DNA of 11,102 nucleotides, taken from positions 1-11,102 of the forward strand of contig CAKZMS010000490.1 of NCBI GenBank assembly GCA_937128785.1, given 5' to 3'. Positions 2,212 to 11,102 of this stretch are shown piece after piece. Below the pieces are notes generated by a model. The model was given only the letters and a program-made list of their open reading frames with translations. It was not told the origin of the DNA and did not search any database. Within the stretch, counting starts at the first letter, position 1. Every line of letters starts with the position of its first letter. Source of the DNA: an uncultured Opitutaceae bacterium. Lineage in GTDB: Bacteria; Verrucomicrobiota; Verrucomicrobiia; Opitutales; Opitutaceae. The position numbers and the translations under genes are program-made.

Positions 2212-2679
2212 TCAATGGTGGTGATGCTCGTGGGTGGGATAGTAGACGAAGAGCTTTTCTACCGCAGCCTTGAGGGCTTCACCCGCGGCGGAGTCCGCGC
2301 TTTGCTTCGCTTTCATGGCGGCGACGATCACGGCGTGGTGGTCTTTGAGCCGTTGCACGTAGTCCTCTTGGGATGCTTTCACCCGTTGGGTAAGGAAGTA
2401 GTCGGCCATGACGAAGATTACGTTTTGGGCGTGTGACTCCTTGTTGTTCACCCAGCGCACGAGTTGCTGGTGGCTTTGGGCGTCGGTTTTGCCGCTGAGG
2501 TCGGCGATCATGTTGCCGGCCTTGATCACGGTTTCGGCGTCCTGCAGCAGCGCATCCACTTTGGCGTGGTCGTCGTAGATGCCGCAGGGGACCTGGCAGT
2601 GGGCAGAGGCAGAATGGGCGGAGAAGAGGAGGCCGGCGAGGGCCACCAGGGTAACAAGGCGGGAAGAGAGTGTTTTCAT
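2212..2679 (-). CDS. sodN: Exported nickel superoxide dismutase
   Basis: The protein has 155 residues from ATG at 2679. A 13-residue upstream extension of the frame is not needed. Residues 1-26 form a textbook Sec signal peptide (basic start, hydrophobic core LVTLVALAGLLF, then SASA). Directly after comes HCQVPCGIY, the Ni-hook motif HCxxPCGxY of Ni-SOD, in which His1, Cys2 and Cys6 of the mature chain bind nickel for superoxide dismutation. The WVNNKESHA and DYFLTQRVK segments match the conserved helices of the family. The mature chain would be about 129 residues, slightly longer than the usual 117 or so, and ends in HEHHHH, a possible metal-binding tail. Classical Ni-SODs are cytoplasmic and have a propeptide removed by SodX; no SodX gene is in this window, and signal peptidase could expose His1 instead. 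A palindromic operator candidate lies 73 bases upstream, shared with the divergent gene at 2857. Confidence 0.93.
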   Translation of the reverse strand: MKTLSSRLVTLVALAGLLFSAHSASAHCQVPCGIYDDHAKVDALLQDAETVIKAGNMIADLSGKTDAQSHQQLVRWVNNKESHAQNVIFVMADYFLTQRVKASQEDYVQRLKDHHAVIVAAMKAKQSADSAAGEALKAAVEKLFVYYPTHEHHHH

Positions 2680-2744: not shown

Positions 2745-2779
2745 GGGGAGAATTTAACCAATATGGTTAAAGTCTCCCC
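2745..2779. promoter_or_regulatory. Palindromic operator candidate, copy 1 (sodN / 2857 divergent gap)
   Basis: The core TTTAACCAATATGGTTAAA is at 2753-2771 (8-base arms, 3-base centre). Here the symmetry continues beyond one mismatch (2752/2772) into GGGGAGA at 2745-2751 and TCTCCCC at 2773-2779, so 15 of 16 pairs match. It sits between two divergent genes, 73 bases from the sodN start and 85 from the start at 2857. The same core recurs at 9417-9435 and 10610-10628. Confidence 0.75.
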
Positions 2780-2856
2780 CCTGCTCGAGAGCGACAATGC
2801 TGCATCATTTTGGGTGGGGGCTTGCGGAGGAGGCGTGGGTCGGCTTGATCAGCGAG

Positions 2857-3870
2857 ATGATTATGCGAATCGTGGGCGGTTTGATACTGGTGGTTGGACT
2901 GGCGTTGCCTCTCCGGGCAGGGGAAATGGCGGATCTGGTGGCGGCGGTGGGACTGCAGGAACTGGCCGACACCTTCGATCCGGCCAAGGCGGACCGGATT
3001 CTGGGCGAGTATGGGACGAGTATCACGGAACCGGATGAACGGATCGCGGCCGCCGTCTTGGTGGCCATGGGGATGGTGCACGATTTGATTTTGGATGACC
3101 CGAAACGACGGGCAAAAATGCTGCAAGGGTGGGAAAACCCCACGCAGGAGACCGCCGGGGTATTCGAAATGGCGTTGGCCCGACCCTCGGGGATCATGCG
3201 GGTAAAGTCGATTGGCGGACATGAGGCCCTGCGACAGGATGCGGCGTTGATGGCGGCACTCGATGAGGCGATTGGGGAAGAAGTGCTTACAGGCTACGGA
3301 TTGCGGCCGCGCAACGTCAGTGCTCCGACGGCGGCCGAGCGCACCTTGATCTACTCCCACAGCAGTCTGTCGCACGTGAAGCAATTGATCGGGTTGATGG
3401 CCAGTGAGGGTCTGAAGGGGCGGGTCATGATCGCACCCAAAGTGGCGGCATTTGTGTTTCGAGAGGGGTGGGGCGAGCGGCCTGACTGGATCAATGAATT
3501 GGGCGATGGCATCTACGTGGCGCAGGGCCCGGAGATGTTGGTGCACTTTGAACTGGCGACACCGGAGGACCGGCAACGATTTGATGAATTGGTGGAGCGT
3601 TACGCGAAGAAGGACTCGGAGGATGAAACCGGGAATTTGGTCCGTTCCTGGTGGCAGCCCTTTTACTACGGGGAGACTGCGGCCGACGACTTCGAGCCGA
3701 TTTCTCGGGTGACCCTCTACGGCGACAAAGTAGAGGCCTCGCTGCTGATGTTGCCCGAGCGGGAAGAAATCGTGCAGTCGTATTTCGCCGATGCGGAGTG
3801 GGAGTTGAAGACGGATACGATCTGGGTGAATCCGCCGTTCTTCCGCTTCCTCCAAGGCGGATTCAAATAG
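2857..3870 (+). CDS. Secreted protein of unknown function
   Basis: I do not recognise this family. ATG at 2857 (a second ATG is at 2863) gives 337 residues starting MIMRIVGGLILVVGLALPLRAG, a clear signal peptide, so the protein is probably periplasmic or outside the cell. An AGGAGG at 2828-2833 would instead suit a TTG at 2845; the longest frame begins at 2797. The mature part is acidic and mostly soluble. It has an alpha-helical first half (repeated Ala, Leu, Glu and Asp patterns around residues 25-140), then a more mixed region with LIYSHSSLSHVKQLIGLMASEGLKGRVMIAPKVAAFVF near residues 165-205. It shows no zinc, nucleophile or lipoprotein motif I can name. It diverges from sodN across the palindromic operator candidate, so it may share that control. 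It converges on vapC with a 17-base gap and no visible terminator. Confidence 0.8.
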   Translation: MIMRIVGGLILVVGLALPLRAGEMADLVAAVGLQELADTFDPAKADRILGEYGTSITEPDERIAAAVLVAMGMVHDLILDDPKRRAKMLQGWENPTQETAGVFEMALARPSGIMRVKSIGGHEALRQDAALMAALDEAIGEEVLTGYGLRPRNVSAPTAAERTLIYSHSSLSHVKQLIGLMASEGLKGRVMIAPKVAAFVFREGWGERPDWINELGDGIYVAQGPEMLVHFELATPEDRQRFDELVERYAKKDSEDETGNLVRSWWQPFYYGETAADDFEPISRVTLYGDKVEASLLMLPEREEIVQSYFADAEWELKTDTIWVNPPFFRFLQGGFK

Positions 3871-3887
3871 TCAGTGTTGGCAACTTG

Positions 3888-4274
3888 CTACCAAATCACG
3901 TCGACGGGGTAATCCGGAAAATGTCGGTCACCGGAAATGATAGGCACATTCAATGAATGGGCGGTGGAAATAAGTAGCCGATCGAATGGATCGGAATGAT
4001 GATTAGGAAGATCGGCCGTATGAAAAAGTGCGCGGTCGGATATCGGTTCATAGGTCAAGTCCGACTCCTGGATTCGTTTGCGCAGATACTTCTCGGGCGT
4101 ATCGGGCAGGGGCAGTTTTCCGAGGTGATTTTTTAGGCAAATCTCCCAGGTCGAGACCTGGCTGAAGAACAGAACGTTAGTCGGGTCCTCGATTAAAACC
4201 CGGGCATTGCGGCCCAACCGTTCGGGGGCGATCCAGAGGAAAAGGGCGGCTTGGGTATCAAGGAGTAGCTTCAC
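3888..4274 (-). CDS. vapC: VapC-type PIN-domain toxin of a type II toxin-antitoxin pair
   Basis: This 128-residue protein has the size and layout of a PIN-domain ribonuclease. It starts MKLLLDTQAALF (Asp6), has VSTWEICLKNHLGKL in the middle (Glu44), then HHSDPFDRLLISTA (Asp95 and Asp98) and IISGDRHF (Asp116). These acidic residues form the metal site of VapC toxins, which cleave specific RNAs such as initiator tRNA or the sarcin-ricin loop. In many relatives the first motif reads LLDTH; here the histidine is glutamine. The ATG overlaps the stop of the antitoxin gene by four bases, the usual translational coupling of such pairs. All acidic residues are present, so the toxin is probably active. 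The RNA target cannot be predicted. Confidence 0.92.
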   Translation of the reverse strand: MKLLLDTQAALFLWIAPERLGRNARVLIEDPTNVLFFSQVSTWEICLKNHLGKLPLPDTPEKYLRKRIQESDLTYEPISDRALFHTADLPNHHSDPFDRLLISTAHSLNVPIISGDRHFPDYPVDVIW

Positions 4275-4525
4275 TTTGAGCCATCAAACAGGTCGGAGAT
4301 CTCTGCATTGGTGGCCGGAGAATCCCAGTCTGCGGCGAGCTCAATTTTGCCAACGTCCTGACCTAATTTGCGTCGCTGCGACGAGGGGCGACGGGATTTG
4401 GCGAGAGGGCGCAGCTCGGCAAACGGTTTGTTTCGATCACAAATGATGACGGTTTCGCCGGCTTTCACCTGTTTGGCGTAGCGCGACAGATTCGCTTTGG
4501 CTTCGTGGAGGTTGACCTTCAGCAT
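4271..4525 (-). CDS. Phd/YefM-type antitoxin
   Basis: This 84-residue protein has the Phd/YefM N-terminal DNA-binding fold: MLKVNLHEAKANLSRYAKQV followed by KAGETVIICDRNKPFAELRPL. The tail after about residue 45 (KSRRPSSQRRKLGQ, then acidic with SDLFDGSK) would be the disordered segment that wraps and inhibits the PIN toxin encoded next. Antitoxins of this kind also repress their own promoter, cooperatively with the toxin. The gene begins 14 bases after the ceramidase-like gene and is read in the same direction. It may therefore be transcribed partly from the upstream operon and partly from its own promoter within the end of that gene. Confidence 0.9.
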   Translation of the reverse strand: MLKVNLHEAKANLSRYAKQVKAGETVIICDRNKPFAELRPLAKSRRPSSQRRKLGQDVGKIELAADWDSPATNAEISDLFDGSK

Positions 4526-4528
4526 CCC

Positions 4529-4556
4529 ACCAACCTAGTTCAGTCCAGTAGTTGGT
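4529..4556. promoter_or_regulatory. Weak inverted repeat upstream of the antitoxin
   Basis: ACCAAC at 4529-4534 pairs with GTTGGT at 4551-4556 over a 16-base spacer, overlapping the last codons of the upstream gene. Position just before the antitoxin start suits an autoregulatory operator, but the arms are short and chance is a fair alternative. Confidence 0.3.
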
Positions 4557-5805
4557 CAAGTAGCGACTGGAGCGGCTGCACCAGACCGAGCTGGTGATGG
4601 ATGCTGACTAGGGCTTCGAGGACCATGCGTTCGCCGGCGCCGACTTCGAGATCGGTGCCCCACGCGGCGCCGTAGCCGCCCTCGGTGGTGGCCTTTAGCG
4701 TCGGGATATACCAATTGAGTTCGTTAGTGACGCCCAACACCCAGGTGGCCGCCGTCGGGCTCTGGGATTTGAGGTCCAAACCGAGCTGGACGAACAACTC
4801 GCCGGGGAAAGTCGCCATGGCGAAATCATCGCCCAGCAGGATGGTGTTCACTTCGATTTGACGATCCTTGGCTCCCTCGGGACCCGCCGCACGATCCGCC
4901 ATCGGCAGGAAACTTTGGCCATAGCGGACCGTCGGATCAGCATCGAAATCGTTGATGTCCTCAATCGTTTCGATGACTTCATTGGCCAGCAGGTGCCCGG
5001 TGATCTTCACCTGGGCGAACACTTCGTCCGGGGTGGCGTAGCGAAACATATCGGCGTCGAAGGGATTGATGTCTCCCGCTGCGCCCATGAAGAAAATACA
5101 GCGACCGCCGACGGCCTCCTCGATTTCGCGAGCCATCACGCCGGGGTAGTCGGCGGAGATGATCAGCTCGCTGAAGTTCATGCTGATGACCGGGTGCACG
5201 GCGTAATTGACGAGGGTGGCAATGACGTCGTGGGTCTCGGCGTGTTGGACCACGAGAACGCCCACTTCGGGGTCGGTGGGACCGGAGGGGATGCGATCGC
5301 GGTTGTTCCACATCATCTCGACGGAACCATCTTCCTGCACAATCCGCCGGTTGTAGCCCAAGTGCTGTTCACCGCTGCCAAACCCGATCCGAGCGGGGGC
5401 GAGGTTGGCCTGAGCTTGGACCGCGGCGTCGAGAATGAGGGGCAACGTGCGCTGCGCGTGAGCTTCCGAGGATCGGCCGGAGCCGTGGGTGTGCGTGACG
5501 ACGCAGATGACGTTGGCAATGCCGGTGCGCTCCCGAACGCCGGCTCGAATGTCGTCCATATTTTCAGCGCCGATTTGGTCGAGCGAAACGATGGCGAGCT
5601 GGTCGGAACCGTTTTGGAATACGATGATGTTGGCGGCGAGCGGGTCGTGGATTTTCTCCACGGCGACGTCCTTTCCGCCCATGGCTGTCATCATCTCACC
5701 TGGCAGTGGGGTGATGTCGGTGTGGGCGACTCCCGCCTGAAACTCAGCGCCTAGCGGCACGGTGGCGGTTAAGGTCAACAATGCGGCGAGAAGGAGGGGT
5801 TTCAT
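4540..5805 (-). CDS. Exported neutral ceramidase-like hydrolase, single-domain
   Basis: This 421-residue protein starts with a signal peptide (MKPLLLAALLTLTATVPLGA). It matches the N-terminal catalytic domain of the neutral/alkaline non-lysosomal ceramidase family: AGVAHTDITPLPG at 24-36, VVTHTHGSG at 102-110, LVNYAVHPV at 198-206, SADYPGVMAREIE at 217-229 and FMGAAGDINPF at 239-249. The THTH and VHP histidines correspond to the family's zinc ligands. True ceramidases run to about 650-700 residues, with a C-terminal Ig-like domain that is missing here, and have a catalytic Ser in GDxSPN. Here that position reads GDINPF (Asn247). I therefore read it as a periplasmic or secreted zinc hydrolase of unknown substrate rather than a ceramidase. 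It starts 19 bases after the holA stop, so the two are probably co-transcribed. Confidence 0.85.
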   Translation of the reverse strand: MKPLLLAALLTLTATVPLGAEFQAGVAHTDITPLPGEMMTAMGGKDVAVEKIHDPLAANIIVFQNGSDQLAIVSLDQIGAENMDDIRAGVRERTGIANVICVVTHTHGSGRSSEAHAQRTLPLILDAAVQAQANLAPARIGFGSGEQHLGYNRRIVQEDGSVEMMWNNRDRIPSGPTDPEVGVLVVQHAETHDVIATLVNYAVHPVISMNFSELIISADYPGVMAREIEEAVGGRCIFFMGAAGDINPFDADMFRYATPDEVFAQVKITGHLLANEVIETIEDINDFDADPTVRYGQSFLPMADRAAGPEGAKDRQIEVNTILLGDDFAMATFPGELFVQLGLDLKSQSPTAATWVLGVTNELNWYIPTLKATTEGGYGAAWGTDLEVGAGERMVLEALVSIHHQLGLVQPLQSLLDQLLD

Positions 5806-5824
5806 GATTCGATCGGTGGCGACT

Positions 5825-6916
5825 TTACGTAGCTAGGCAACGGGTGGCCATCTCGCGCAGGACGTCTTCCTGCTCGTTGGGTCGCTTGATGATTTCGGCG
5901 AACGCGTTGATCAATTCCTGTTGGTTGTCGATCAGGCGACGGGTGGTCGGCAGCCGGCCACCGCTGGCGAGCTTGCCGACATACCAAGCGTTCTGGGTGA
6001 AGAGATTGTAGGCGCTCTTGCTGGTCGCACCGACGAACTTGTCCGAGTGCTTGTCGGCGGCCGTTTTGAGTCCGTCGAGACCGCGGCCTCCCAGCCGCGC
6101 GTCGCCCGCGTCAATCAAGGCGCGCACTTGCAGCAGGATGCGGTTGCGATTCTGCAATGCGCTGATGATGGGACGGGCATCACCGCCGGAAAAGAAGTGC
6201 CGGTGCAGCGCGGCGAGCGTCCATTTAATGTCGCCGCTGAAAAAGGCCTCGGCGGCTTCGAAGAAATCACCCTCGGCGACATTGGGCGTGAGCTCAGCCA
6301 CGGCCTCTTCGGTGATGGGCTGGCCTTCGTCGACGTAGGACGACAGCTTGCGCACCTCTTCGATGAGGAGGCGGGTATTGGCGCCGATCTTGGTGAGCAT
6401 GAGCTCGATCGCGCCGGGTTCGATGGCGACGTCGAGTTGCTTGGCCTCGGCCATGAGCACGCCGCCGAGAGCCGAGGCATCTCCGTCGCCGCCGATCAGG
6501 GTAAAGTCGCCGTTCTTCTCCGCCCACTTGGGAAAGGCGCGGCGTCGGTCGATGGGCGAGGCAGTGATGAGCACGGCGACATTCGCGGGGTCGTTGGCTT
6601 CGAGTAGGCGTTGAACTTCCTCCACCTGTTTGAGGGTGCTTTCGGCGCGACCGGTGACGGAGTCGGCCAGAAAGTTGACGTCCTTAAGCCAGACGAGGCG
6701 GCGACCGCCGAACATGGAAATCGTCTGCAGGGCTTCGCGGAAGCGGTTCACCGCGGCTTCGACTTCGGCGACGTTGGCGGCATAGCCACTGATGGTCTCC
6801 CGGGAGAACTCGTCGTCGATCTCCTTGGCCAGCTCATCGTAGCGCTCACGACCCAGTCGACCGACGAGAAAGTCGTCGGGGCCGCAGATGAAGATGAACG
6901 GTTTGGCGTCGGGCAT
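5825..6916 (-). CDS. holA: DNA polymerase III delta subunit (clamp loader)
   Basis: Starting at ATG 6916 the protein has 363 residues, close to the usual 330-350 of HolA. MPDAKPFIFICGPDDFLVGR is the typical opening (strand, G-D-FL loop) of the divergent AAA+ domain. It is followed by the arginine-containing segment VLITASPIDRRRAFPKWAEKNG near 135-160, LTKIGANTRLLIEEVRKLSSYV near 195-220, and a helical C-terminal collar domain with RPIISALQNRNRILLQVRALI. Delta is the wrench that opens the beta sliding clamp when loaded by the gamma/tau complex. The frame stays open upstream to 7168, but that stretch is His/Pro/Arg-rich and not family-like. No Shine-Dalgarno sequence precedes the chosen ATG; the leader is pyrimidine-rich. 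It is the first gene of the minus-strand run that ends with vapC. Confidence 0.92.
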   Translation of the reverse strand: MPDAKPFIFICGPDDFLVGRLGRERYDELAKEIDDEFSRETISGYAANVAEVEAAVNRFREALQTISMFGGRRLVWLKDVNFLADSVTGRAESTLKQVEEVQRLLEANDPANVAVLITASPIDRRRAFPKWAEKNGDFTLIGGDGDASALGGVLMAEAKQLDVAIEPGAIELMLTKIGANTRLLIEEVRKLSSYVDEGQPITEEAVAELTPNVAEGDFFEAAEAFFSGDIKWTLAALHRHFFSGGDARPIISALQNRNRILLQVRALIDAGDARLGGRGLDGLKTAADKHSDKFVGATSKSAYNLFTQNAWYVGKLASGGRLPTTRRLIDNQQELINAFAEIIKRPNEQEDVLREMATRCLAT

Positions 6917-7081
6917 GGGGGTGGGGAGCAAGGAGGTTGTTGGGCGATGGCGGCGGGGTGAAGTGCGAAAAGCAATTGGCGGCGGATTGATGGCAGTTGC
7001 CAACGGGCGGGGGAGCGGTGACACCGGACGCATGCTATTTTCTTTGCCCGCCAATCCCGTTTTGCGCGTCTGCGCTGCATC

Positions 7082-8056
7082 ATGACCGGGGATACGGAAT
7101 TTGAGACCCCGAAATCGGTGCTGGTCGTGGGGGTGCTGATGGTGGGGGTGACGCTGCTGTTTGTGCATCGATTCGCCGGCACCGTCATGACCGAGCTGGC
7201 AACCGAAGTGGTGGGCGACGACGAGAGTTGGCGTTATCGAGGAATGTCGACCCTGTGGGTGCTGGGCGGATTGTTGGGGGCATTGGGAGCGGCGATGCGG
7301 TTTCGCCTCGAAGTATGGCGCAGCAGTCTGAGCTGGGGATTACGGGCCTGCAGTATGGCCGCGGTATTGGCCGTGATGGCGGAAAACTGGACGGTGCTAC
7401 TGATCGCGAGTTTTGCGACGGGAGCGAGTGCCGGCTGGTTGTTGACGGTTCTGACCACCGGCATGCGGGCTTCGGTGGGCACATTGCGGTTGGGGGTGAT
7501 CGTGGGAGTGGGCTTTGCACTATCCGTGGGCCTGAGCGAGGCGGCGTTACGGTTGGCGGCGATGTTCGGTGATCCGATCAAGGGTGGTGGGGTCGTGGTA
7601 GCATTGCTCGTGGCGGCCAGTTCGGTTGTCGCGCCGTTTCTGACGCCGCAGGAACCCTCGATGGCAATGGAGCCGGAATACCGGGGGCGCGGACTCTTGA
7701 TTCAATGGCTCGTGCTGACGGCAATTGCGGTCGGTATCACTGCTGCCGGGAGCGGAGCGCTGGCGCCGCCCCTTTGGTGGTGGTTGGCTCTGGCGGTTGC
7801 CCCCATGCTGGGCGGTTGGTTGGATGCCGGTCAGCGCCGCTGGCCGTTGATTGCGGCGATCGGGTTGGTGGCGGTGGCGTTGTCCGGGGTGGTGGGAGGC
7901 TTTCTCGCCGGCGGGCTTACCTTGTTGGCGGGAACGCTGCTGACGGTTTGCGCGATCTATTTCGCGGCTCGTGGGGGGCGCGTCTGGGTCGCGGCCGGCA
8001 CGATGGCCTGGGTCGTGTTTCTCGGCCCCTATGTGGTCGGATTGTTCGCCGCTTAG
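7082..8056 (+). CDS. Polytopic inner-membrane protein, possibly MFS-like
   Basis: The 324-residue protein is strongly hydrophobic, with about ten to eleven predicted membrane segments: residues ~12-30, 56-74, 84-103, 105-123, 135-153, 165-187, 206-225, 227-245, 253-275, 277-294 and 300-322. A short polar N-terminus comes first, and a loop near 190-205 (PQEPSMAMEPEYRGRG) could be the central cytoplasmic loop of a major-facilitator-type carrier. I see no MFS signature strong enough to name a substrate, and Ala/Gly/Val-rich membrane proteins can look alike by composition. The ATG at 7082 has no obvious ribosome binding site. An extended -10-like TGCTATTTT at 7033-7041 lies about 40 bases upstream, in the gap shared with divergent holA. 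The stop overlaps the OsmC-family stop on the other strand. Confidence 0.8.
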   Translation: MTGDTEFETPKSVLVVGVLMVGVTLLFVHRFAGTVMTELATEVVGDDESWRYRGMSTLWVLGGLLGALGAAMRFRLEVWRSSLSWGLRACSMAAVLAVMAENWTVLLIASFATGASAGWLLTVLTTGMRASVGTLRLGVIVGVGFALSVGLSEAALRLAAMFGDPIKGGGVVVALLVAASSVVAPFLTPQEPSMAMEPEYRGRGLLIQWLVLTAIAVGITAAGSGALAPPLWWWLALAVAPMLGGWLDAGQRRWPLIAAIGLVAVALSGVVGGFLAGGLTLLAGTLLTVCAIYFAARGGRVWVAAGTMAWVVFLGPYVVGLFAA

Positions 8057-8526
8057 CTCACCAACGTTGGGGTGCAATTCACCTCACTGGTGATCGAATT
8101 CGCGATGAAGCACGCGTCATGGGCGGCGTGATGGAGAGCGTCCAATGCTTCAGCGGTGGGTTGCTTTTCACCAACGAATTTGGTGGCGGGGCGGAGTTCG
8201 ATTCGACTGATGGCGGGTTTGCCCGCGGCGTTCTTTTCGAGAAACCCCTCGGCGTCATCGGTGTAGGATTCGACCACATAGCCTTTGACGCGGGCGAGAT
8301 GGAGGAACCACAGAAAGTGACAGCTGGATACGCTGGCGACGAATGCCTCTTCAGGGTCGACGGCGGCGGGGTCGGACCACGGAGTGGGCACAACTGCGGG
8401 GCTGGGCGATCCGGGGACGGTGAGGCCGCCGTCAAAATTCCACTGGTGGGCGCGGGAGTAGCGGTTGGTGGCGAAGTCGTCGCCGGCATTCAGCGACCAA
8501 GTGAGTTGTGCGTTGTGGGAGGACAT
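8053..8526 (-). CDS. OsmC-family thiol peroxidase
   Basis: The protein has 157 residues from ATG 8526. A 17-residue upstream extension to 8577 is possible but less likely. It shows the OsmC/Ohr hallmarks: an early Arg (Arg25), the helix DPEEAFVASVSSCHFLWFLHLAR with Glu59/Glu60 and the peroxidatic Cys69, and HDACFIANSI with the resolving Cys139. OsmC-type enzymes reduce organic hydroperoxides, recycled by lipoyl proteins or small thiols, in the cytoplasm. The long insertion TVPGSPSPAVVPTPWSDP before the first helix is typical of the OsmC-like branch rather than Ohr. It is read in the same direction as the SRAP gene, 113 bases downstream of it. Only weak short inverted repeats lie between, so read-through from that promoter is plausible. 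Its end overlaps the stop of the convergent membrane-protein gene. Confidence 0.9.
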   Translation of the reverse strand: MSSHNAQLTWSLNAGDDFATNRYSRAHQWNFDGGLTVPGSPSPAVVPTPWSDPAAVDPEEAFVASVSSCHFLWFLHLARVKGYVVESYTDDAEGFLEKNAAGKPAISRIELRPATKFVGEKQPTAEALDALHHAAHDACFIANSITSEVNCTPTLVS

Positions 8527-8639
8527 GGGCCGGGACAGAAGTATCCCACCGTCGCCAAGGCTTTGGCGGGCAGGCAAGTAACAAGGGAGAGAACGGCCGG
8601 AAGGTGGCGGGTCGCAAAAAGTGACGCCGACCCCGTGGG

Positions 8640-9335
8640 TCAGAAAAGATCAAATTGAGAGCCGGGAGCTTCGCCGCGGGGGGTGAGGCAGGCGGGGCCT
8701 TCCACGCGGGAGGAGTTTACGTAGGTATCGAGCGGGGTTTCCTTGAGGCGCTCGGCGGGGAATTGGGTGATCATGGCAGTCGGATCAGCCAGATCCGGGT
8801 CGAGCCACTCGGATGCCGTCGTTTCGTCGAGGAGGACGGGCATGCGGTTGTGGATGCGACCCAACATGGGATTGGGCGTGGTGGTGATGACGGTGACGCT
8901 CTCGATCACGGTATCATCAATCGGGTCAATCCAGCGGTCCCAGAGTCCGGCGAAGGCGAGAGGTCCGCCGTCGTTGCGTTGGAATAGCCAGGGTAGGCGT
9001 TCCTTGCCTTGTTTCTCCCACTCGAAGAATCCGGTGGCGGGAATGAGGCAGCGCTGCCCTTTTTTCCAAGCGGTGCGGAATGAGGGTTTTTCCGCGATGG
9101 TCTCTCCGCGGGCGTTGATGAGCGGGGCGGACGAAGCGCTGCCTGCTTTGGACCAATGGGGAATCAGCCCCCATCGCAAGGAGGCTGCCTCTTGGTGGCG
9201 GAACGTGACCACGTCGGTCGAGGGAGCGATGTTGTAGCGATCCTTGCCGCCGGCCATTGCTTCATCGATCGGAATGCCGAGCTTTTTGCTCAGGTTGATG
9301 GCATCGCCTAAATTGAGGGTGAAACGGCTGCACAT
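8640..9335 (-). CDS. SRAP-domain protein (YedK/HMCES family, abasic-site shield)
   Basis: The protein has 231 residues from ATG 9335; Cys2 becomes N-terminal after Met removal. In this family the Cys2 amine and thiol form a thiazolidine crosslink with abasic sites in single-stranded DNA, protecting the fork. The other active-site residues are visible: NIAPS at 35-39, LRWGLIPHWSK at 53-63, INARGET at 73-79 (Asn74), IPATGFFEWEK with Glu105 (same number as in E. coli YedK), and GRIHNRMPVLL with His162. The final residues are GSQFDLF; the pentapeptide QFDLF (codons 8643-8657) matches the beta-clamp binding consensus. The longer open frame to 9683 must be ignored because Cys2 fixes the start. Its leader contains a heptamer repeat and the second operator palindrome. 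Confidence 0.95.
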   Translation of the reverse strand: MCSRFTLNLGDAINLSKKLGIPIDEAMAGGKDRYNIAPSTDVVTFRHQEAASLRWGLIPHWSKAGSASSAPLINARGETIAEKPSFRTAWKKGQRCLIPATGFFEWEKQGKERLPWLFQRNDGGPLAFAGLWDRWIDPIDDTVIESVTVITTTPNPMLGRIHNRMPVLLDETTASEWLDPDLADPTAMITQFPAERLKETPLDTYVNSSRVEGPACLTPRGEAPGSQFDLF

Positions 9336-9346
9336 GGCGCGGGGCG

Positions 9347-9380
9347 AAGTATCAAGTAGCAGGTAGCAAGTATCAAGCAG
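9347..9380. repeat. Degenerate 7-base tandem repeat in the SRAP leader
   Basis: Read on the plus strand: AAG, then TATCAAG (9350), TAGCAGG (9357), TAGCAAG (9364), TATCAAG (9371), then CAG. That is four full seven-base units with partial units at both ends, about 4.9 copies of the pattern TA(T/G)CA(A/G)G. It lies 12-45 bases upstream of the SRAP start codon, between the start and the operator palindrome, so it is probably in the 5' untranslated region. Confidence 0.8.
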
Positions 9381-9413
9381 ACCCGTGAGGATGGCCTCAC
9401 CGGAGGCTGTCGC

Positions 9414-9438
9414 TAGTTTAACCATATTGGTTAAACTA
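9414..9438. promoter_or_regulatory. Palindromic operator candidate, copy 2 (upstream of SRAP)
   Basis: The core at 9417-9435 is TTTAACCATATTGGTTAAA, the reverse-complement version of the core at 2753 and 10610. The symmetry extends three bases each side (TAG and CTA), making a 25-base palindrome with a TAT centre. It lies 81 bases upstream of the SRAP start and just past the stop of the radical SAM gene. In that arrangement its only obvious target is SRAP (and OsmC behind it). Confidence 0.8.
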
Positions 9439-9453
9439 TAGAAGTTCTCAGGT

Positions 9454-10584
9454 TCACAATAAATCCAGTTGGGTGCCGCCGGGCCGGCGGAAGTCGGCGG
9501 CATTGAGTTCGGGTAGGTCGGGGGGCAGGCCGGCGCGGCGGCGGGCGGCGACGAAGAGGTTACGGATGTTGTCGGCGTGGATGCCTTCGCCGCGCATGCG
9601 GGTGCGCCACTCGGTGACGTTGAGTTCGCCGCCGCGAATTTCCCGCACGCGGGAGAGGATGCGATCGGCCTTGGTGGGCACATGGGTTTCGAGCCAATCG
9701 GTGAAGAGGGTTTTCAACTGAAAGGGGAGGCGCAAGACGATCATCGACGCGGACTTCGCTCCGGCTTCAGCGGCCGCGTTGATGATGGCCGGCATTTCAT
9801 GGTCGGTGAGCCCGGGGATGATGGGCGCGATCATGACCCCGACCGGCACGCCGGCGGCGCTGAGTCGGCGGATCGCTTCGAGGCGCGCCTGAGGCCGGGA
9901 GGCGCGGGGCTCGAGTTGGCCGGAGAGTTCGGCATCCAAGGTGGTCATGGTGAGCAACACGCCCACGCCGTTCCACTTGGCGAAATCCGCCAGCAGGTCG
10001 ACGTCGCGGGTGATGAGCCGATTCTTCGTGATCAGGCTCACGGGATTGCGCAGTTCGAGCGCGACCTCGAGACACTGTCGCGTGATTTTGAAGTGGCGCT
10101 CCGCTGGTTGGTAGCAATCGGTCGCGCCGCTGAAAGCGATGGGTTCGGGTTGCCAGGAGCGTTTGCTCAATTCGGCGCGCAGCAGTTCCGGGGCACGACG
10201 TTTGACCATGATCTTGGTCTCAAAATCCAGGCCGCTGCTGAACCCGAGGTATTCATGGTAGGGCCGCGCGAAACAGTAGGCGCAGCCGTGTTCACAGCCC
10301 CGGTAGGGATTGACGCCGTAGGTGTAGGGGACGTCCGGGCTGTCGTTGCGGGAAAGAATGGACTGGCTGTCGTCGTCGTAGAACTGGGTTTGCGGCCCGG
10401 GGCGAATCACGTCCTCAGGGGCGAGGTCGGCCTCGGCGGCTTCGTCAATGTCCACTCGCAGGGGAGTGAACCGATTGGGTGGATTGATGGGCGTGCCGCG
10501 ACCCTTGCCGGCGTGGCGAGGCAGGTGAGAGGAGGAAGGGTCCGAGGAAGACGACACGGTCAAAACTATGGTATCCGGGCGCAA
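9454..10584 (-). CDS. PA0069-family radical SAM protein (SplB-related)
   Basis: The protein has 376 residues if it starts at TTG 10584. A GTG at 10557 (removing nine residues) is an equal candidate; neither has a clear ribosome binding site. The N-terminus carries the family signature KGRGTPINPPNRF at 27-39. The segment YGVNPYRGCEHGCAYCFAR supplies Cys97, Cys101 and Cys104, the CxxxCxxC motif that holds the 4Fe-4S cluster and generates the 5'-deoxyadenosyl radical. Further on, IAFSGATDCYQPAERHFKITRQCLE, LITKNRLITRD and GVMIAPIIPGLTD follow the TIM-barrel pattern shared with spore photoproduct lyase. The biochemical reaction of this family is not known to me; kinship to SplB suggests nucleic-acid chemistry. 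The last residues are GGTQLDLL, with QLDLL (codons 9457-9471) resembling a clamp-binding pentapeptide. Operator copy 3 lies 25 bases upstream of the TTG. Confidence 0.9.
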   Translation of the reverse strand: MRPDTIVLTVSSSSDPSSSHLPRHAGKGRGTPINPPNRFTPLRVDIDEAAEADLAPEDVIRPGPQTQFYDDDSQSILSRNDSPDVPYTYGVNPYRGCEHGCAYCFARPYHEYLGFSSGLDFETKIMVKRRAPELLRAELSKRSWQPEPIAFSGATDCYQPAERHFKITRQCLEVALELRNPVSLITKNRLITRDVDLLADFAKWNGVGVLLTMTTLDAELSGQLEPRASRPQARLEAIRRLSAAGVPVGVMIAPIIPGLTDHEMPAIINAAAEAGAKSASMIVLRLPFQLKTLFTDWLETHVPTKADRILSRVREIRGGELNVTEWRTRMRGEGIHADNIRNLFVAARRRAGLPPDLPELNAADFRRPGGTQLDLL

Positions 10585-10607
10585 AATGCCAGCGGAGCGT
10601 TGGAGTG

Positions 10608-10630
10608 AGTTTAACCAATATGGTTAAACT
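10608..10630. promoter_or_regulatory. Palindromic operator candidate, copy 3 (radical SAM / 10718 divergent gap)
   Basis: The core TTTAACCAATATGGTTAAA at 10610-10628 is identical in sequence and orientation to copy 1, and the symmetry extends two bases each side (AG and CT). It is 25 bases upstream of the TTG start of the radical SAM gene and 89 bases upstream of the divergent ATG at 10718. A repressor bound here could block the radical SAM promoter and possibly the other one. Confidence 0.8.
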
Positions 10631-10717: not shown

Positions 10718-11102
10718 ATGATTCGAAACGCGTTCATCCTTCTCACTGCCCTCGCGGCTGCCGGCGCCGTCCTGGCCCCGCCTGTTTCGACTACGCGTGC
10801 GGCCTGCGCGCTGAAGGACTTGCTGGTGCTGCAGCGGGAGCTGTTGGCCCGGGCGGCCGAGGCGGAGGTGCAGGAAGATGTCGAGCAGCTGCGCCCGCGT
10901 TTGCAGGATCTGGTGTTTGAGTGGGAGGACTATCTGCAGAATTATCCGAAGAAACCGGAGGGTTACATCGCCTACTCCATGCTGCTGGGCAACCCGCTGG
11001 TGGATGAGCGCAAGCGAGCCAAAGCACTGCTCCTCCGCGCCAACGAATTGGATGCCGACCAGCCGATCGTGAAGAACCAGTTGGGCAAATACCTCGCCGA
11101 AG
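10718..11102 (+). CDS. Secreted helical (TPR-like) protein, 5' part
   Basis: ATG at 10718 opens a frame of 128 codons that runs off the window. MIRNAFILLTALAAAGAVLAPPVS is a signal peptide. The mature start is strongly helical and acidic (ELLARAAEAEVQEDVEQLRPRLQDLVFEWEDYLQ), followed by NYPKKPEGYIAYSMLLGNPLVDERKRAKALLLRANELDADQPIVKNQLGKYLAE. The last part reads like tetratricopeptide repeats, with Ala, Gly and Tyr at repeat spacing. Proteins of this sort are periplasmic scaffolds or assembly factors; I cannot give a specific role. It diverges from the radical SAM gene, with operator copy 3 in the gap. Confidence 0.8.
   Translation, partial: MIRNAFILLTALAAAGAVLAPPVSTTRAACALKDLLVLQRELLARAAEAEVQEDVEQLRPRLQDLVFEWEDYLQNYPKKPEGYIAYSMLLGNPLVDERKRAKALLLRANELDADQPIVKNQLGKYLAE

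Follow-up and report, generated by a model that had tools for sequence, protein, structure and literature searches.

The stretch of DNA analysed here (the window; 11,102 bp, contig CAKZMS010000490.1 of an uncultured Opitutaceae bacterium) contains three exact copies of a 19-base palindrome, which raises the question of what these elements are. The copies are located at positions 2753-2771 (site 1, minus strand), 9417-9435 (site 2, plus strand) and 10610-10628 (site 3, minus strand), the middle one being oriented opposite to the other two. All three are a single 19-mer, with a central trinucleotide of TAT or, on the opposite strand, ATA, and with an expectation of 0.01 in shuffled sequences. 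A first-pass annotation, which had judged three exact copies to be far beyond chance, was correct on this point, and it was probably also right that the sites behave like the target of a DNA-binding protein. The reading suggested by the sequence comparisons, to which we give roughly even credence, is that the palindromes are dispersed binding sites of one resident XRE/Cro-type helix-turn-helix (HTH) protein, which most likely regulates its own gene and would have a docking or boundary role between genes.

The palindromes and a candidate partner protein

A pattern with a free 3-base centre was used to search the window's own draft genome (G000; 3.64 Mb in 774 contigs, 82% complete). It was found at 22 places, every one of which proved to be the identical 19-mer, and a search permitting up to 3 mismatches added only four copies, of which two differ at 1 position, one at 2 and one at 3. 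The reversed control pattern gave no matches in the G000 contigs. The dispersed-repeat alternative raised in the first-pass annotation is right in part; the near all-or-nothing distribution of the copies is unlike that of an old, decaying repeat. The exact 19-mer also turned up once each in 11 of 34 contig stretches of unrelated organisms, and in 3 viral contigs; these occurrences were attributed to chance. One orthologous gene shared by G000 (L197:5705) and the related genome G004 (L179:3035) has a near-match inside its coding part, which was set aside as a probable coding match.

The candidate partner is an XRE/Cro-type HTH protein of approximately 120 amino acids, encoded outside the window by a minus-strand gene located beside dus (G000:C607:4765-5127). 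In the four species first compared (G000, G001, G004 and G006) palindromes lie close to this gene, with one site after its stop codon and one or more before its start; the arrangement is plain in G000, G001 and G004, and varies in G006. The site preceding the gene is centred about 18 bases ahead of the start codon. Homologues of the HTH protein are present in 130 of 252 genomes of the family, in 33 of 49 genera. A sample of the phylum gave matches in 18 of 387 genomes, all inside the same family, and viral contigs yielded 1 distant relative. The dus gene lies within the fetched stretch in 27 of the 30 best HTH loci and in 40 of 89 in the wider set.

Among 90 homologue loci, 89 gave a usable HTH gene. 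Palindromes of the format xTxAxx-N5-xxTxAx were detected within about 160 bases on both sides of this gene in 52 loci (51 of these with the same half-site), on one side in 29 and on neither in 8; the frequency of both-side palindromes in control windows from the same loci was 8 of 842. The palindrome after the stop codon (5-base loop, arms of at least 6 bases) is still present in 20 loci which are located away from dus and in which the next gene is convergent.

Pfam and NCBIfam searches with the HTH proteins gave solely HTH-type matches, nearly all of them under the cut-offs. The HTH_3 score is 24.3 for the G006 protein (cut-off 23), 22.2, i.e. just under the cut-off, for that of G000, and 16.9 for that of G001. 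Assignment to the YdaS toxin family fails (25 bits, cut-off 30), as does assignment to the HigA antitoxin family (13.1 for one member, cut-off 47.7; best E value 4e-4 among 15). The transposase domain Y1_Tnp (PF01797) is absent from the Pfam results for three HTH proteins and 15 aligned members. A Foldseek search with a single-sequence AlphaFold model of modest quality (predicted local distance difference test score 66.6) retrieved mainly XRE proteins (such as C.EcoT38I, P22 c2 and SinR), as weak matches that were all listed with E > 0.2. The N-terminal region of the HTH protein is helical and basic, and matches no Pfam family. The hint in the first-pass annotation that the sites resemble those of some ArsR-family genes is not supported, because the candidate partner is of the XRE/Cro type; for the same reason a LexA, Fur/Nur or ArsR regulon behind the sites is unlikely, although no search was aimed at such regulators or motifs.

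Dialects and residue-base associations

With at most 1 mismatch, the 19-mer occurs in 4 of 38 genomes (G000 included), all of one genus. The 3-mismatch search revealed 42 copies of a changed version, TGTAACCATA(A/G)TGGTTACA, in G001. Palindromes of the type TGTCACC-N5-GGTGACA number 46 in G005, a further 25 in G001, 19 in G003, 13 in G002 and 10 in G007, and there are none in G004. Examples of dialect sites are TTTAACCATATTGGTTAAA, TGTAACCATAATGGTTACA and TGTCACCATTATGGTGACA.

The presence of GTAACC-type palindromes was then compared with that of the HTH gene. From 5 to 75 copies per genome were counted in 14 genomes that have the gene. G002 and G003, which also have it, contain 1 and 0, and use GTCACC instead. 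Of ten HTH-lacking genomes, searched with this one dialect pattern, nine have no copy and one has 1. With the reversed control pattern, 22 of 26 genomes gave 0 matches, and G002, G130, G164 and G185 gave 1 to 3.

Several genomes encode HTH paralogues. The two of G001 have the dialects GTAACC and GTCACC, the two of G130 share a half-site and differ in the 5-base centre, and two further paralogues in G000 are bracketed by or adjoin GTAACG and GTCATC palindromes. We tentatively propose, with slightly less than even confidence, that these elements constitute a transposase-free, family-wide two-part system, in which a dus-linked HTH protein and its intergenic palindromes all over the chromosome switch dialect together, site by site, from one species to another, and in which paralogues have separate dialects within a genome.

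The half-site was written as six letters and compared with the protein residues (G000 numbering) in the 81 loci in which it could be assigned. All 62 loci with Arg95 have C at base 6, and none of the 19 with another residue does; the latter have T (8 Gln and 2 Ala), G (5 Ala, 1 Tyr and 1 His) or A (2 Ala) there. Lys or Arg at position 83 goes with G at base 1 in each of the 73 loci that have it, and the 8 loci with Pro (7) or Ala (1) all show a different letter; the combination of Pro83 and a changed base 1 is spread over several genera. At base 5, C is found in 75 loci, which all have Arg85, and among the other six, four have Thr or Ala and two (GTAATA) keep Arg85. His or Asp is found at position 87 in 28 of 31 loci with C at base 3 and in 4 of 50 without it. 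Six later loci with a palindrome, a set whose G003 dialect was already known beforehand, follow the rule at base 1 in 6 of 6 cases, at bases 5 and 6 in 5 of 6 each, and at base 3 in 4 of 6. The residue-base code is nearly, not fully, perfect, because it is broken by a paralogue in the window's genome (L386; G000:C222).

These associations suggest contacts of (i) Lys/Arg83 with base 1, (ii) Arg85 with base 5, (iii) residue 87 with base 3 and (iv) Arg95 with base 6, through which a homodimer of the HTH protein may bind each palindrome. The site centred ahead of the HTH gene would cover its ribosome-binding region, and most likely mediates negative autoregulation.

Genomic positions and competing explanations

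We also inspected the location of the sites relative to predicted genes, which were called with our own simple hexamer script. Only a minority of sites fall inside genes (2 of 26 in G000, 5 of 44 in G001, 2 of 33 in G004 and 3 of 16 in G006), and 3 more in G000 and 4 more in G004 lie at contig or locus edges. Counted by gap, the remaining sites (edge and genic sites, 5 of 26 in G000 and 5 of 44 in G001, being left out) occupy tandem, divergent and convergent gaps in numbers of 9/4/5 in G000, 15/9/5 in G001, 9/3/5 in G004 and 8/1/3 in G006, versus 9.2/4.5/4.2, 13.9/9.6/5.5, 9.2/4.8/3.0 and 8.0/1.9/2.1 expected from gap lengths, with a background taken only from the fetched loci, themselves chosen for holding sites. 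A concentration upstream of gene starts, for which the first-pass annotation had proposed to scan the genome, is thus not seen in these four genomes; gap types are used in proportion to their length. This usage does not fit promoter operators or terminators.

Most of the sites that lie close together form inverted pairs (3 of 4 pairs in G000, 7 of 9 in G004). G001 contains two tandem arrays of the palindrome that include flanking DNA, both in convergent gaps (L141:10303-10681, 5 x 90 bp; L142:8492-8758, 3 x 124 bp). With arrays collapsed, the 34 site positions in G001 fit a uniform distribution (Kolmogorov-Smirnov p 0.78), the chromosome origin not having been located.

The positions of many sites are shared between species. 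In G000, 14 of 20 gaps with a site have one neighbour gene or both in common with such a gap of another species, and for 5 of the 20 it is both. Shared gaps number 15 of 22 in G004, 9 of 15 in G005, 10 of 29 in G001, 2 of 7 in G006 and 2 of 3 in G007. These counts leave out loci fetched for homology to G000, use an orthology cut-off of 55% identity, mostly reflect one shared neighbour rather than both, and cover 21 of the 46 sites of G005 (20 in 15 gaps, one genic) and 4 of the 10 of G007. Assuming 2500 genes, the gaps shared with G000 exceed expectation in every case: 12 vs 0.35 for G004, 7 vs 0.46 for G001, 6 vs 0.24 for G005, 2 vs 0.11 for G006 and 3 vs 0.05 for G007. The orthologous neighbours of shared sites are often approximately 66-88% identical at the protein level. 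Conserved sites occur at both gene ends and in convergent gaps, also beside asnS, hemB/cysS, dus, recQ, efp, fabF, pgpA and queT (names according to our own reading of the sequences). Shared gaps often carry another dialect in other species: the convergent queT/MFS gap has TTAACC in G000 and G004 (at a contig end in the latter), GTAACC in G001, and GTCACC in G005 and G007, and in the hemB/cysS gap G000 and G004 each have two TTAACC sites, where G005 has three of the GTCACC type.

Since the sites look as if kept by selection yet ignore gene direction, the protein bound at the other ~20 intergenic sites would most likely serve as a docking or boundary factor between genes all along the chromosome, and not as a promoter-specific switch. 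Several points weigh against this explanation. The binding of the HTH protein to the palindromes and its autoregulation are predictions, and loci with a convergent next gene may also have a palindrome after the stop codon, a position for which autoregulation has no need. Of 20 later, more distant homologues, 14 lack a palindrome of the usual format (L389-L393, L395-L402 and L404). The code is broken at base 5 by the two GTAATA loci with Arg85, and at bases 5 and 6 by L386, which combines GTCATC with Arg85 and Ala95 (one of its GTCATC palindromes has arms of 18 bases); the association of base 3 with residue 87 is looser than those at the other positions, and the covariation counts ignore phylogeny. 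The sharing of gaps is weaker in G001 and G006. Finally, many palindromes are extended outwards by complementary, locus-specific arms, which are not explained by one HTH dimer. Arms of at least 13 bases are present in 35 of 155 palindromes bracketing HTH genes, where about 0.5 would be expected from the 97 that reach 9, and in loci such as L295 and L215 the complementary outer arms reach up to 25 bases, far beyond chance. Outer-arm complementarity exceeds that of shuffled sequences in G000 (p 0.0002) and G001 (p 0.01), and is not significant in G004 (0.09) and G006 (0.31). Templated correction of near-palindromes is a process that may have a part here.

The strongest rival is a maintenance process like that of repetitive extragenic palindromic (REP) sequences and their REP-associated tyrosine transposases (RAYTs), which we regard as possible though unlikely. 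The palindromes would then be non-coding mobile or gene-converted repeats, and the HTH gene a resident partner that spreads, homogenises or hitch-hikes with them. According to PMC3116915 and PMC3733652, REP/RAYT systems comprise dispersed intergenic palindromes and a partner gene flanked by its own repeat; each partner has its own type of repeat, and the repeats form inverted pairs as well as tandem clusters. Doublets of this kind (REPINs) are inverted and their tandem clusters include flanks (PMC3116915). The layout seen here is similar: the palindromes are short and intergenic, the HTH gene is bracketed by its own repeat even away from dus, paralogues have their own dialects (two in G001, two in G130), close pairs are mostly inverted, the arrays of G001 include flanks, there is no preference for gene direction, the outer arms are extended, and the same gap may carry a different dialect. 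The differences are that the HTH partner lacks a tyrosine-transposase domain, its Pfam and NCBIfam matches being HTH-type only and its Foldseek matches mainly XRE proteins; that the copies are fewer and that single copies in G000 are hardly decayed, whereas REP singlets are described as defunct remnants in PMC3116915; that positions are kept between species whose neighbouring genes have often diverged to the identities given above; and that GTAG directly adjoining the core is rare (4 of 26 copies in G000 and 0 of 93 in G001, G004 and G006 together).

A RAYT as driver was considered separately and rejected as the partner: Y1 transposases are encoded in 8 of 8 genomes of the genus, including those with none or almost none of the palindrome. 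A RAYT might nevertheless act as a mobiliser. As an observation in its own right, different DNA with a repeated look lies after a short Y1 transposase gene in G000 (L027:3-617; G000:C599), and the two may form a REP/RAYT system of their own.

Somewhat less probable again is a global transcription factor of the classical type, with co-evolving operators and a broad regulon that would include tRNA synthetases, hemB, dus, recQ, radical SAM, SRAP and other genes. A broad role of this kind is possible, because the shared gaps contain important genes, and it too counts against the docking or boundary explanation. It would account for the conserved sites in the divergent gaps of asnS and hemB/cysS, for the position of the site ahead of the regulator's own gene, with its centre about 18 bases from the start, for sites beside orthologous genes in 14 of 20 gaps of G000, and for the residue-base code, which is as expected of factor-operator co-evolution. 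It is difficult to reconcile with the use of tandem, divergent and convergent gaps in proportion to length, with the site kept in the convergent queT/MFS gap of G000, G001, G005 and G007, or with the conserved neighbour genes, in which we recognise no common theme.

The first-pass annotation had proposed a narrower scheme, a dedicated stress and repair operator joining the three minus-strand genes of the window that lie next to the sites. Its identification of these genes agrees with Pfam: sodN, for nickel superoxide dismutase (2212..2679; Sod_Ni, 2.5e-35), SRAP (8640..9338; SRAP, 2.1e-59) and the radical SAM gene (9454..10584; Radical_SAM, 5.9e-14). Each copy does lie upstream of a minus-strand gene, but two of the three window gaps are divergent, which places sites 1 and 3 upstream of a plus-strand gene as well. 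Site 1 separates sodN from a plus-strand gene without a Pfam family (2797..3870; gap of 25 bases), and its dyad resumes just outside the core after one mismatch (GGGGAGA / TCTCCCC). Site 3 lies between the radical SAM gene and a plus-strand gene, also without a Pfam family, that runs past the window end (10718..11101). The radical SAM gene has sites 2 and 3 on its two sides in opposite orientation, site 2 being located 18 bases past its stop. The distance of 73 bases from site 1 to the sodN start (2679) stands, that from site 2 to the SRAP start is 78 bases rather than 81, and that of 25 bases from site 3 to the radical SAM start applies only to the longest start (10584), becoming 154 with the start chosen by the gene finder. 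Elsewhere in the window, positions 3888-4525 contain a PIN-domain gene and a Phd/YefM antitoxin gene, resembling a type II toxin-antitoxin pair according to Pfam.

Examination of the orthologues gave a mixed result. A site is present on the 5′ side of the radical SAM gene in G000, G004, G005 and G007, in the radical SAM-SRAP gap in G000, G005 and G004, and on the 5′ side of sodN in G000 and G002. In the G004 gap (L340, around 1422) the site is in the dialect of the second HTH protein of that genome (locus L277), not of the main one. SRAP orthologues occur in 8 of 8 genomes of the genus, adjoined by the radical SAM gene in 7 of 8. No site was found near radical SAM or SRAP in G001, G002 and G003, near SRAP in G006, or beside the sodN orthologues of G004, G005 and G007; three genomes gave no sodN match. 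This partial conservation favours the stress and repair operator, which fails because of the breadth and direction-blindness of the sites: G000 has 19 other exact sites, several of them conserved beside housekeeping genes. We consider it very improbable.

Least probable of all, RNA hairpins acting as terminators or 5′-untranslated region structures would suit the locus-specific complementary outer arms. They were abandoned as the leading account since divergent gaps hold sites too, about as often as length predicts, and since few sites have four consecutive T within 15 bases on either 3′ side (2 of 26 in G000, 6 of 44 in G001, 4 of 33 in G004 and 0 of 16 in G006); the protein-base covariation moreover indicates double-stranded DNA.

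Known systems and biological meaning

No description of such a system was found in our literature searches, which covered open-licence papers only and these mostly at the level of listings. Noc, SlmA and MatP are dedicated proteins, each with tens of strict palindromic sites distributed round the chromosome with little regard to gene direction. The palindromes described here resemble these sites in their number, strictness and blindness to gene direction, and in having one dedicated, here predicted, protein. They differ in that this protein is of the XRE type, and in that the sites are mostly intergenic, often lie beside the same genes across species and change dialect rapidly.

With XRE/Cro-type autoregulators, such as the C proteins of restriction-modification systems, P22 c2 and SinR, the predicted partner shares the HTH fold and a palindrome just before its own gene; here, there is also a site after the gene, tens of sites elsewhere, and the helical, basic N-terminal region. 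The pairing of a gene for a DNA-binding protein with a dus gene recalls the dusB-fis operon, a parallel by position only. Fis is a global DNA-binding protein of another family, and fis flanks dus on the opposite side.

Dozens of related proteins, each located beside its own target site, provide a largely readable protein-DNA recognition code for this HTH family. They also present a puzzle, in that the 20-40 copies per genome change specificity together while many of them retain the same neighbouring genes. If function is what keeps the sites, they would represent an unrecognised chromosome-organising or insulating system in Opitutaceae-type bacteria; if they are kept by copying, they would represent a new kind of palindrome maintenance that operates without a transposase.

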